49,260 bases of DNA from Cylindrobasidium torrendii FP15055 ss-10 (lineage: Eukaryota > Basidiomycota > Agaricomycetes > Agaricales > Physalacriaceae): positions 1-49,260 of the forward strand of contig KN880606.1 in NCBI GenBank assembly GCA_000934385.1. The letters are read 5' to 3'. Below the pieces are notes generated by a model. The model did not search any database. It was not told the origin of the DNA and saw nothing but the letters and a program-made list of their open reading frames with translations. How positions within the stretch are numbered: position 1 is the first letter of the stretch; each line of letters starts with the position of its first letter. This document shows positions 32,238-48,368 of this stretch, one piece after another. The position numbers were made by a program, and so were the translations under genes.

Positions 32238-32815
32238 TCAATTCTTGGCCAAGATCTGGTCTGGAGTAGGAGACCCAACGGTAAAGGCACTTTGGATCTT
32301 CTCTTGGGTAGGTGCTCCGCGAGAGAATACGTCGGTCCCAACGTGTGTAGACTCCCAAAGATCTTCAAGGGCTGCTTTCGCGCTCAGACCTCTCGATACA
32401 CGACGCAGCAATAACACAAGACGCACCAGTAGAGCGGGTCAAAAGCCAGTGAGTCTGAATAACTTCCTCATCCCCGCCGAAGTACTGTCCGCTCCACGTC
32501 GCGGTGGAATGAGCGTCGCGCTGTGAACCCCGGTTAGACGAAGTGCTTTCAGGCGAAAGTGAACGAAGAACGAACCAAGTCATTGTGGTAATTCACCGTC
32601 CAACCGAGTGTCAGACCTTGATTATCGACAGGATCCGTCTCGTAGCGTCCGGTTAAGACATAGAAATCCTCGGCGTTCCCGACAGCAGAGTTGTACTGCC
32701 CGCTGAGGGTGCCGTTCTGGTCGACGTCAAAGACGACAGTAGATCCGAGCTGGTTGTGCCAGGTCCCGTTAATCAGAGCAACGGCAGATGCGAGTGCGGC
32801 AGCGGAAACAAACAT
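32238..32815 (-). CDS. Avidin/tamavidin-like biotin-binding protein, copy 1 (155 aa)
   Basis: Avidin-family eight-stranded barrel expected to bind biotin. Exons are complement(32576-32815), (32427-32520) and (32238-32371), 468 nt; intron 1 is phase 0 and intron 2 phase 1, as in all five copies here. Hallmarks are GTWHNQLGS, SGQYNSAVG, LGWTVN, the strand TWSGQY, THWLL and LWESTHVGTDVF. By alignment to streptavidin, the Asn23, Ser27, Tyr43, Ser45, Trp79, Ser88, Trp92, Trp108, Trp120 and Asp128 positions are kept, but Thr90 is Ala (HSTATW). A 14-residue hydrophobic leader without basic residues precedes the barrel. The C-terminus has a Pro/Thr/Gln extension ending PDQILAKN, shared only with copy 2. 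A TATAAAAG box is 62 bp upstream. Confidence 0.95.
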
Positions 32816-32876
32816 GGCTAGCAGTGAGAATGGTTGTGGGTGGGTGGGGATGGGGACACCGATTTTGTGTGCGACT

Positions 32877-32884
32877 CTTTTATA
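32877..32884 (-). promoter_or_regulatory. TATA box of avidin-like copy 1
   Basis: TATAAAAG on the minus strand, 62 bp before the start codon at 32815. Spacing and sequence suit a fungal core promoter, and similar boxes precede copies 2, 3 and 4. Confidence 0.6.
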
Positions 32885-33287
32885 TCTCGACGAGCTTGTA
32901 CATGTGGATTATGCCCAGAGCGTAGCCAGAGCCTGACATAAGGGTCAAACATTGGAAGAATGGCGTCAGGTGGCAGGTAAGTACCAGGCGACAATGACGG
33001 ACAACTTGGACCCCAGAAATGTGCTCTCCATCCCGTGAGAAAATTCTTTGTTGCACCAGTGCGCTCAGACGCAATACCTGATGCAATGGCGAGAATTCCT
33101 GCATATTTTCCCCGCTTCGTAGCGAATTTTAATAGCCGTCATTTGCTCTGCGGAGGGTTCTTTCTCCAGTGGCATTCGCTGGATTGGGAGACTAATTTTC
33201 ACTACATCGCTAACACCGTATGGAAGTACAAAGAGTCCACGAGTACTCTATGAGCCGTAGACGAAATTTGATGCAAAGACAAATGCC

Positions 33288-44566: not shown

Positions 44567-46766
44567 ATGACCCACGACCTCGGCCACGGCCAGCAGGACT
44601 CCCAGCTCACGGGGCATGCACGCGTCGGCGGACACTCCCTCCTGAGGTTCCCCGTCCTCACCATCGGACTCCTCGGAATGCAAATCTTCTGGTCCGTCGA
44701 GCAAGCATACGGATCGCCTTACTTGCTCTCCCTCGGGCTGTCCAAATCCGCAATGGCCATGGTGTTTCTCGCTGGTCCGGCGTCCAGCCTCATCGTTCAA
44801 CCGCTCGTCGGTGTCCTTTCCGACAACTGCACGTCGAGATTCGGTAGGAGGCGGCCGTACATCATCGGGGGCGCATGCATCGCCGTCTCAGGGATGCTCT
44901 TGCTTGGGCACGCACGCGAAGTCGGCGGGATGTTCTCTTCCAATGTGCGTCATCCGCAGCGCAGAGAGTCTCAATAACTGACTGCATCGCAGAACACTTT
45001 CACACTCTTTTTGGCTGTGTTTGCAGTATTCGTGGTGGATTTCAGTACCCAAATAGGTGCGTCCGTAACGTCTATGCCATCCCTATCCATTTCCTTACAC
45101 CCATTTAGTCGTGACTGTGGCATACGCGCTACTTGTCGAAGTTCTTCCAGCGTCTGATCAAGCGACCGTCAACGCCTGGTCAGCACGGATGGGCGCAATA
45201 GGCGGTGTCGTCGGTTTCTGGATGTTCGTGGACCGTATCTTCCTTCTCCGCTTTATTGACCACTATCTCAGAGGTACTCTTGACCTCCCTACGCTCCTTC
45301 CTGCACTTGGTCCCAACGAGCTCTCCGCGCTCAGCGTGATCTCGTCCTTCCTTCTTTTGGCAGGTTATTCAACCACTGCGATACTCGTGCACGAGCAGGT
45401 TCTCGTGAAGCATATTCCTCGGTATGCGCTTTGGTTTGATGCATAGGCCCACCCCCTAATCTTTCTCTAGTTCTACTTTCAAAGAAGTCATCGACCAATT
45501 CCGCGGACTTCTTGCCAATTACGAGACGCTACCTTCTGCAATAAAGCAAATAGTACGTACCGCTTTCACTAAGTAGCTATCTGGCTTACTGATTCATTCC
45601 AGTTCATCATCCAATTCCTGTCCGTCAGCTTTCCCTACATACACACCCGTCCACAACACTAACTCTTCCCCAGGTCATGGATGGGCTGGTTCCCCGTCTG
45701 GTTCTACACCACCGTCTTCGTCGGCGACGCCTACAAACGCCAAATCCTTGCGGACCCTGCCACGCCGTTCGACGCCGCTGCCATTGAGGACGAAGCAACA
45801 CGCGTCGGCGCCCATGCCCTGCTCTACTCCGCCTTGCTCTCCCTCTCATGCAACTTTGTACTCCCGCTTCTGACGAAGAACCCGGATGGATCTGAAGCCA
45901 AGTCGTGGAAGATTGGGCAGACGGAGCTTTGGGTGGTGGGCATGGGTGTTTTTTCGACGAGTATGTTTGCGACATTGTATGTCTATCCTTCAGCTCCGCA
46001 TCTTTTCTTGGGGGCGGAAAGGTTGACTGTCAAATGCTGAATATGCTGGTAGCTTTACAGACTCGCTTATTGGATCCACCCTAATTATGAGCGCGCTCGG
46101 GTTCTCCGGTGCCATAGCGTTCTGGGTTCCATTCTCCCTCGTACGTCCTTCCCCTCTTCAGTAGACTTCACACCGCTAATACCTATCCACAATAGATTGG
46201 TGCAATGATCGCTGGGTCCTCCGCTACTTCGTCGCATCCTGGCGAAGATGTAGTGATGACCGAAGTCAGACGCTCACGACCTTCGGAATCCGCAGAGACA
46301 CTGCTTGTCGGTGGGCATGCCCGGGACGATGAGGCATCTATTCTTAGTGGTAGTGAAGACGGGGAGGAGGTAAGGGAGGACTTGAGTGCACGGACGGGTA
46401 TCATCTTGGTGCGTTCCCATTCCCTTTCCACGCGACATCTTTACTTATGCGGACGGTATAGGGCCTGCATAACATCTTCACCGTCCTCCCGCAGTTCGTC
46501 ATGACAGGGATGGCGTCCATCGTGTTTGCACTGACGGACTATGCCCCGCCGTCCGACGTTTCGGTGGTGGCGAATGCGAGGGAGGAGATGTTGGAAGCGG
46601 CGAGTAAGAATGCCGTAGTCTATGTTTTTAGGTATGTCCTTTTTTCCCTCTTGGGTTGGTGTCGTGGTGCTTACCGATGCGTGGCAGATTGGGAGGCGCG
46701 TCGACGATGATTGCAGCTATATTGTGTTACCGTCTTGCCAGGGAACTCAGGGCGCAGAAGGTGTAG
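44567..46766 (+). CDS. GPH-type sucrose/disaccharide-proton symporter (552 aa)
   Basis: Major-facilitator sugar transporter in the plasma membrane. Eleven exons, 1659 nt: 44567-44944, 44993-45056, 45109-45223, 45272-45421, 45471-45552, 45603-45619 (17-nt micro-exon), 45674-45976, 46053-46140, 46196-46408, 46462-46631, 46688-46766. The signature SRFGRRRPYIIGGA follows the second helix, as in sucrose/H+ symporters of plants and fungi. Other family segments are FWSVEQAYGSPYLLSLG, GFWIGTLDLP, WMGWFPVWFYTTVFVG and FTVLPQFVMTGMASIVF. About 12 helices are expected, with a hydrophilic, Ser/Glu/Asp-rich loop (about residues 405-470) before the last pair. The direct substrate (sucrose, maltose or another disaccharide) cannot be told from sequence alone. 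Confidence 0.93.
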
Positions 46767-47788
46767 CGGTGGTGAGGCATGGACTTCGAGCATAGATTTG
46801 AGATATTTATTGTACAGGTCTTTAATTGTATACCATCGTTTTGGAAGGATGCATATACGAGCTTAAGATGTATCCGCATCTGCGGTGGTGTACTTCGGGT
46901 GATCACACATCCAAAGTTAGGTCGAAGAGCTAGACGGCCCAGGAGCTCCTGGGAGAATGCTCGCTGCGATGCCACAATCCGTCACTGTTCCTTGTCGGAT
47001 GATGTGAACATCAAGTGAGTAGTGCGAATACCAGCAGAGGTTTCAGTTGTAACCTCATTCACTATGAATTCGCAGCGAGTCGAAATTTCACATCCACAAA
47101 GCCGAAACACAGTGAGTTTACTAGGCCCCATGGCAGAAGAGTGGTGTGTGATACAGCTTCCTTGGCTCGTGCCAAGCGGTAAGTGTTCCCTGGCACGGCG
47201 GATAAGGCTCACGAAGAGAAGTTTGTATACGCATTGGGACGCGAGGGTGTGTCTGTTGGATTACACACCGATCCCGATCCCTTAGTCATCACAAAGGGAT
47301 CGATGACTTCGTACGGCGTACTTAGTACATCTTCAATGAGATCGTATACTACACATCAGATGGTATATATATAAGTAAGGACTTGTAAAAATGAAGAGCT
47401 ACAGTGCTCCTTCTCAGTGGCCATTGAAGAAAAAGTACGGGTGCGGTGGCAGATTGAACTTGGCATCGACCGGGCAAAAGAAAGACGAGGCTTGAATGGA
47501 AGACGTTGCCAAGGGCTGTGTTTGGGAGACTCTCTTGTTGTAAGTAGTAGATGTTTAATCTGGAACGAGGGTGCAAGTAGCACCCATCGTCGAGATCAAC
47601 TGGCACTCAGGTGCCGTCGGCGTTGATGTGCTGGTGCTGAACAGTGAAAGTCTGTGAAGACAAGCGTCGAGGGAGACAGAACGGAAAGGATTAATGGTCT
47701 TATCAATGCATAAGTACAACAGGGAAGGAGTTCCAATCATTTCTACGCAGTCTTTGCTATACGTATATCTGACTTTACACTCTACTAC
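46767..47788. other. Intergenic between convergent transporter and avidin copy 5
   Basis: About 1 kb, 3' flanks of both genes. Frames are short and overlap. There is no repeat, RNA or gene that I can support. Confidence 0.45.
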
Positions 47789-48368
47789 TTAGTCCATCTC
47801 ATCGGGACTCCAGGCGACACCGGCCACCTTCTCACGGGTGAAGATATCTGCTCCAGTTTGCGTCGAAGCCCAGTCGCGTTGCTCGGCTGGATCCACGACG
47901 TCAGAGACCACACACACACTCACTCAAGAATGGGGGTAGTAGTAAGAGGGATGACATACTAGTAGACCTGGCCAAGAGCCACTGTGTGCGGATCCACTGC
48001 TTGTTTGCACTGAAGTACTGTCCATTCCAAGTCGTAGTGGAATGCGAATTGCCGGCCTACATCATACACTCAGCTGTTAGTCCACCCATGAGAGTAATTG
48101 ACTGAAGGAAACCCCATACCTTGTTGTTTTTCCAATTGACGGTCCACCCCAGCGTCGCGCCGACATCGAACGAACGGGGATCCGTATCATACCGTCCAGT
48201 CAAGACATACTCGTACTTGGCGTCTCCGACGGCAGAGGTATAGTACCCGCTGAGCGTGCCGTCCGCGCTGGCTTCAAACTCGACCGTGGATCCGAGTTGG
48301 TTGTACCATGTACCGTTGAGGGAGGCGCTGATGGCGGTCGCGAGCGTGGCAGCAGAGAAAACGTGCAT
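47789..48368 (-). CDS. Avidin/tamavidin-like biotin-binding protein, copy 5 (147 aa)
   Basis: Exons are complement(48120-48368), (47960-48056) and (47789-47886), 444 nt, with the same intron positions and phases as copies 1-4. Motifs are GTWYNQLGS, SGYYTSAVG, LGWTVNWKN, HSTTTWNGQYF, TQWLL and DWASTQTGADIFT. The aligned biotin contacts are all present, while the Ser of the usual WSGQ is Asn. The C-terminal end REKVAGVAWSPDEMD groups it with copy 3. It is about 10.5 kb from the other four, suggesting an older or translocated duplicate. Only 11 host bases separate its start codon from an inserted inverted-repeat element, so its own core promoter has probably been displaced. Confidence 0.95.

Follow-up and report, generated by a model that had tools for sequence, protein, structure and literature searches.

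A cluster of five avidin genes and related copies in the mushroom Cylindrobasidium torrendii

Why mushrooms multiply genes for biotin-binding proteins is a question raised by a single contig of Cylindrobasidium torrendii FP15055 ss-10, which we take to be a mushroom-forming, wood-dwelling species. The window analyzed here is the whole of that contig (C176; 49,260 bases), one of 494 in an assembly of 29.3 Mb, and it contains five intact avidin genes, designated g1 to g5, spanning 16.1 kb. The avidin fold, the existence of fungal avidins, a proposed role in defence and clustered avidin families are already known, and public databases already carry avidin annotations for g1-g5, whose proteins are identical to NCBI entries; among the papers listed by searches of the open-access literature, none deals with this cluster. 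New here are a seventh, frame-broken copy, relics of avidin exon 3 on another contig, C402, and an 839-base element beside g5. The lineage-specific expansion is well supported and has some testable details. With moderate confidence, we favor a reading in which a single avidin gene multiplied in this lineage and its products would be secreted biotin-binding barrels that sequester biotin from consumers or competitors.

Gene models, family and biotin site

The cluster begins with two genes on the minus strand, g1 (32238..32815; exons 32815-32576, 32520-32427 and 32371-32238) and g2 (33288..33862; exons 33862-33623, 33566-33473 and 33421-33288), which encode proteins of 155 amino acids that are 85% identical to each other and correspond to NCBI proteins P0003 and P0004, respectively. 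Two plus-strand genes follow, g3 (35113..35653; exons 35113-35358, 35409-35505 and 35559-35653; P0005) and g4 (36694..37252; exons 36694-36936, 36996-37089 and 37152-37252; P0002), each encoding 145 amino acids, the former without a C-terminal tail and the latter with an asparagine at the position of streptavidin Asp128. The fifth gene, g5 (47789..48368, minus strand; exons 48368-48120, 48056-47960 and 47886-47789; P0006), encodes 147 amino acids, is 74% identical to g3 at the protein level, and is separated from the other four by 10.5 kb. Splice models were chosen by enumerating all possible combinations and settling ambiguous ones by alignment with the other copies; the resulting translations match the five NCBI proteins in every letter, which supports the models chosen. 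Each gene contains two GT-AG introns (50-63 and 51-73 nucleotides, in phases 0 and then 1) at positions common to all, so that both the five genes and the shared intron positions and phases described in a sequence-only reading of this DNA are confirmed; a sixth gene elsewhere in the genome, g6, shares these positions as well.

Avidin-family membership, likewise proposed from the sequence alone, is borne out by the Pfam profile PF01382 (Avidin), which matches all six proteins with scores of 80.1-93.6 bits (cut-off, 24). When g1 and g5 were compared with the PDB, 168 and 169 distinct sequences were matched, and the best 60 for each were streptavidins or streptavidin constructs, making streptavidin the best solved relative of these two proteins. 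AlphaFold monomer models of two of the six proteins, g4 and g1, contain eight strands (mean model confidence, pLDDT, 86.9 and 86.3), and the g4 model aligns with streptavidin chains at TM scores of 0.78 (query) and 0.90 (target). Streptavidin from Streptomyces avidinii thus shares the fold and most biotin-site residues with these proteins, although it is bacterial, possesses a C-terminal tail missing from g3-g5, and carries Asp128 and Thr90 where g4 has Asn128 and g1 and g6 have Ala90.

The biotin site was compared over 36 rows at what we take to be the 20 positions at or near biotin, in streptavidin numbering, with protein P0120 (which carries Ala47) as the ruler. Thirteen of these positions (23, 25, 27, 43, 45, 47, 48, 50, 88, 92, 108, 110 and 120) are invariant in all six proteins, including Trp120, a residue that reaches into the neighboring subunit. 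The variable positions are 49, 79, 86, 87, 90, 124 and 128: position 79 reads Tyr, Trp, Trp, Phe, Trp and Tyr from g1 to g6; at position 90, g1 and g6 carry Ala and g2-g5 carry Thr; and at position 128, where 33 of the 36 rows have Asp, g4 has Asn and the remaining five proteins keep Asp. The substitutions at 79, 90 and 128 recur in other fungal avidins among these rows; the Pro at position 87 of g3 is unique among them.

Descent, constraint and further copies

The relationships of these genes were examined in an IQ-TREE tree of 44 rows, comprising six C. torrendii, 29 other fungal and nine bacterial proteins, the fungal and bacterial rows being hand-picked; the 35 fungal rows are named proteins taken from 120 of 379 and 120 of 314 matches, with unnamed metagenome proteins and a partial Galerina protein (P0150) left out. 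All six C. torrendii avidins form one clade (support 99/94), in which g6 is the first branch and the five cluster genes are themselves a clade (96/90). Within the cluster, the two subgroups that the sequence-only reading had proposed for an expanded array are recovered, g1 with g2 (99/92) and g3 with g5 (100/97); g4, which it had taken for an isolated divergent member, instead groups with g3 and g5 (95/89). Being paralogs from a single clade that share one stretch of chromosome, g1-g5 constitute a clustered avidin gene family. Own-species expansions are also seen in the same tree for Galerina marginata (four rows grouped at 100/99) and Mycena indigotica (three of four rows, 100/99), and tamavidin 1 lies on a long branch of uncertain placement.

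Identity among the six proteins ranges from 50 to 85%. By the NG86 method, the ratio of nonsynonymous to synonymous divergence (dN/dS) lies between 0.07 and 0.37 for every one of the 15 pairs of the six genes (0.07-0.25 among the five cluster genes), at dS values from 0.72 (g3/g5) to 3.6, most of which are near saturation and too large to be exact. From these values it follows that the six copies are old and, on average, constrained. Positive selection between copies finds no support from the pairwise comparison, although a site-wise burst of selection would be compatible with pairwise averages, and the suggestion that the array reflects selection for diversified biotin capture gains no support from the low ratios or from the 13 invariant biotin-site positions. 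Old duplications gave rise to the five-gene cluster, with g6 as its sister.

Genome-wide, a profile search located six places with an intact avidin gene, the five of the cluster and g6 (158 amino acids, protein P0007; contig C209, ~25,334-25,920, minus strand); weaker places came to light through searches at the protein and DNA levels. A near-full seventh copy lies at the right end of C209 (~42,681-43,408, or ~7181-7908 in piece L011, minus strand), its match split over three frames, which at a contig end may reflect either true decay or an assembly error. Contig C402 (16.2 kb) carries an exon-3 piece 90% identical to g5 (288-388) and two further exon-3 pieces (~3161-3299 and 7191-7280) overlapping a stretch that occurs there twice at 82% identity; this contig, with its internal duplications and several avidin exon-3 relics, could be where part of the avidin family has decayed. 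The earlier count of five therefore holds for the cluster, whereas the genome as a whole has six intact genes plus the frame-broken copy and the exon relics. In the window itself, tblastn with the six proteins found no avidin relic beyond the five genes at better than E 1.0, and a Galerina avidin used as genome query gave no places besides the six intact genes. Two candidate divergent avidins, C33:96067 and C6:292687, gave E 0.05 and 0.6 in one search and 6.5e-4 and 0.012 in another with a small search space; they lack the avidin motifs and are not counted. Likewise not counted is C402:5588-5841, a weak match whose best E of 0.061 does not improve on those of reversed and shuffled controls (best 0.004).

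The frame-broken copy and the exon relics, together with the repeated element just upstream of g5, might be taken to indicate that the family is mostly decaying, persisting by chance with one or two copies expressed at best. We regard this as very unlikely, since the five cluster frames are intact and their dN/dS is 0.07-0.25 at dS of at least 0.72, both of which argue for a maintained function of the cluster genes.

Comparable families are known in both animals and fungi. Chicken avidin and the avidin-related (AVR) genes are described as paralogs in one chromosomal cluster, with differing affinities and CR1 mobile elements nearby, but they represent a separate, animal expansion of far younger copies, with p-distances of 0.014-0.095 reported among avidin and AVR genes (PMC1082904, PMC1282572). 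The statement that fungal avidins usually come as one or two genes holds for the tamavidins, but among the listed matches distinct named avidins number at least six for C. torrendii, at least five for G. marginata (two of them marked partial), at least four for M. indigotica, at least two each for Cyclocybe aegerita and Favolaschia claudopus, and at least one for each of 17 other fungal names. The G. marginata and M. indigotica avidins are spread over contigs of three and two lengths, respectively, and these species are compared with C. torrendii by copy number rather than by tight clustering.

Secretion, biotin supply and a proposed role

Whether the cluster proteins leave the cell is judged here from their N-termini. 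The best eight-residue hydrophobicity mean before the first strand is 1.84-2.70 in g1-g5, compared with 0.13 for g6 and 0.25 for tamavidin 1, and the N-terminal segment of all five cluster proteins ends in a small-x-Ala pattern directly before [SL][IL]NGTW. Cleavage at this pattern would therefore place the start of the mature protein near an NGT sequon, which adjoins the hydrophobic N-terminus in all five and is absent from g6. Judged by the hydrophobicity mean rather than by a signal-peptide predictor, g6 conforms to the tamavidin type lacking a secretion signal, and the N-termini of g1-g5 fit a short signal peptide, through which these putative biotin-binding barrels would enter the secretory pathway.

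If secreted, such proteins could sequester biotin from consumers or competitors, while the fungus would make its own. Genome searches covering three late steps of biotin synthesis identified four pieces matching biotin synthase (bioB) on contig C92, at 25-88 bits against a whole-protein cut-off of 225; one match to dethiobiotin synthetase (DTBS) at C61:88854, at 25.7 bits against a cut-off of 27; and, adjoining the latter, matches to DAPA aminotransferase (bioA) at C61:86874-88061, scoring 116 and 125 bits where the cut-off is 405. The genome was searched exon by exon, which lowers profile scores, and the matches suggest that C. torrendii makes its own biotin. They render a purely nutritional role less likely. 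Tight binders could nevertheless hoard a scarce vitamin, and an open reading frame (ORF) resembling an MFS_2 transporter (44567-44977) lies within the locus, as might be expected if the avidins served to store or scavenge biotin for the fungus itself. This ORF, however, gives its top scores with sugar-transporter families, and avidins release biotin extremely slowly; with matches for three biotin-synthesis steps in the genome, albeit all under cut-off, we consider storage or scavenging highly improbable.

The functional model for defence is tamavidin 1 of Pleurotus cornucopiae, whose expression in Ashbya gossypii is reported to have reduced fungivorous nematode numbers to less than 4% of the control (PMC6238071). 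It belongs to the same family and size class and shares most biotin-site residues, but its identity to g1 is 52% across 83% of that protein, and its own N-terminus is short and non-hydrophobic. By analogy, biotin binding in C. torrendii is more likely defensive than nutritional, and the cluster probably serves to deprive small animals or microbes of biotin, so that a fungus synthesizing its own biotin would deny it to consumers and competitors. Multiple copies could increase the dose or divide expression among tissues, and small differences, at positions 79, 90 and 128 and in the C-terminal tail, could tune binding.

Several observations weigh against this secreted, biotin-withholding role. 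The N-terminal segments are very short, below the usual length of a signal peptide, with ~13-15 residues before the possible small-x-Ala site, and contain no Lys or Arg; the AlphaFold models of g4 and g1 show the segment as a helix beside strand 1, with a mean pLDDT of 62-72 over residues 1-10, rising to 92 over residues 11-20. Being short, without Lys or Arg and modeled in this way, the segment may belong to the fold. The cited defence work concerns tamavidins that are described there as cytoplasmic. No bioB, DTBS or bioA piece exceeds its family cut-off, and aminotransferase matches also occur elsewhere in the genome, the best bioA-like one on contig C72.

Some of these points are what would be expected of a cytosolic defence store such as that proposed for tamavidins, in which the N-terminal segment serves as part of the structure, as a helix, and the proteins are retained within hyphae or fruiting bodies and take effect once consumed. 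The helix beside strand 1 is consistent with such a store, as are the description of tamavidins as both cytoplasmic and toxic to nematodes (PMC6238071) and the finding that 25 of the 35 named fungal avidins, including tamavidin 1 and g6, fall under the cut-off for a hydrophobic N-terminus (a value set post hoc). Such a store accounts less readily for a hydrophobic N-terminus and adjoining NGT sequon that are present in all five cluster genes and absent from g6, or for the frame-broken copy on C209, whose hydrophobic, signal-like start is longer, includes a Lys and lies within a single open frame. Known eukaryotic avidins are, moreover, stated in one survey to be secreted, and about half of its putative bacterial avidins to have signal peptides, which its authors regard as a way of avoiding self-toxicity (PMC8033661). 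We regard the cytosolic store as the less likely alternative and secretion as the favored reading of the cluster proteins.

The proteins also differ at the other end. In g1, g2 and g6, a tail of 28-29 residues follows the last strand and ends in SPxxxxxLAK, resembling the ends of many fungal rows, whereas only 15-17 residues follow the last strand in g3-g5. Many of the 35 named fungal avidins have a tail ending approximately in SPxPExx[LI]A[KR], which is absent from four Lentinula proteins with signal-like N-termini. These Lentinula avidins resemble g3-g5 in their hydrophobic N-terminus and short C-terminus, but they occupy a separate branch of the tree, and in three of the four the N-terminal region is longer. 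In full-length streptavidin, residues 150-153 are described as folding into the biotin site (PMC3344845), and we infer by analogy that the fungal tail may do the same.

With cut-offs fixed after the values had been inspected (a hydrophobic mean of 1.8, just exceeded by g5 at 1.84 and one Lentinula row at 1.81, and a tail of 20 residues), and with only the first 35 residues scored in two M. indigotica rows that have very long predicted N-termini, the 35 fungal rows divide into seven with a hydrophobic N-terminus and short tail, three with a hydrophobic N-terminus and a tail (g1, g2 and M. vitilis), one with a short tail and non-hydrophobic N-terminus, and 24 with neither feature. A short tail thus accompanies seven of the ten hydrophobic rows and one of the 25 others, an association that is not significant over these 35 rows because only two to three independent pairs on the tree underlie it. 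It is conceivable, though doubtful, that mushroom avidins left the cell more than once through gain of a signal peptide, and that some then lost the tail that would plug the biotin pocket in cytosolic forms; the cluster would in that case combine plugged (g1 and g2) and open (g3, g4 and g5) secreted traps, with g6 cytosolic. Together, the six genes are a ready-made series of avidin paralogs from a single fungus: g6 is a sister gene within the genome, the divergences are old and constrained, and there are specific changes at the biotin site, tail and N-terminus. This series makes the question of why mushrooms multiply biotin-binding proteins testable, and provides new avidins that may have graded properties.

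An element beside g5 and the neighboring ORFs

The interval between the divergent genes g2 and g3 (33863..35112) presumably contains both promoters, and the 10.5 kb between g4 and g5 contains an alpha/beta-hydrolase ORF in addition to the MFS_2 ORF. The repeated element of 839 bases (48380..49218) lies just upstream of g5, 11 bases from its start codon; it has inverted ends and is flanked by the 9-base repeat GATGCGGAG at 48371-48379 and 49219-49227. Used as a genome query, the near-whole element identified five other near-full copies, one long partial copy and fragments, several of which begin at contig base 1. It looks like a non-autonomous DNA transposon, and we presume from the 9-base flanking repeat that it might be Mutator-like; an exact end-motif search in two other copies gave no clear pair of flanks, and the 9-base length, as seen in the copy beside g5, is provisional. 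The outer flank of the element resembles the g3 leader, with a score of 33 against a maximum of 28 in 300 letter shuffles (both sequences being C-rich) and scores of 18-22 against the leaders of g1, g2 and g4. On account of this resemblance, it seems that the element has separated the leader of g5 from the coding part, leaving the g5 reading frame intact.

Elsewhere in the window, ORFs matching DUF6570, Helitron_like_N and PIF1 helicase occur in succession at 11183-16624 and probably represent a Helitron. At 19844-22827, an ORF with a myosin motor domain precedes another that carries a cytochrome b5-like domain, an arrangement that we take to be that of fungal myosin-motor chitin synthases. 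A histidine phosphatase (branch 2) ORF at 31321-31926 adjoins g1.

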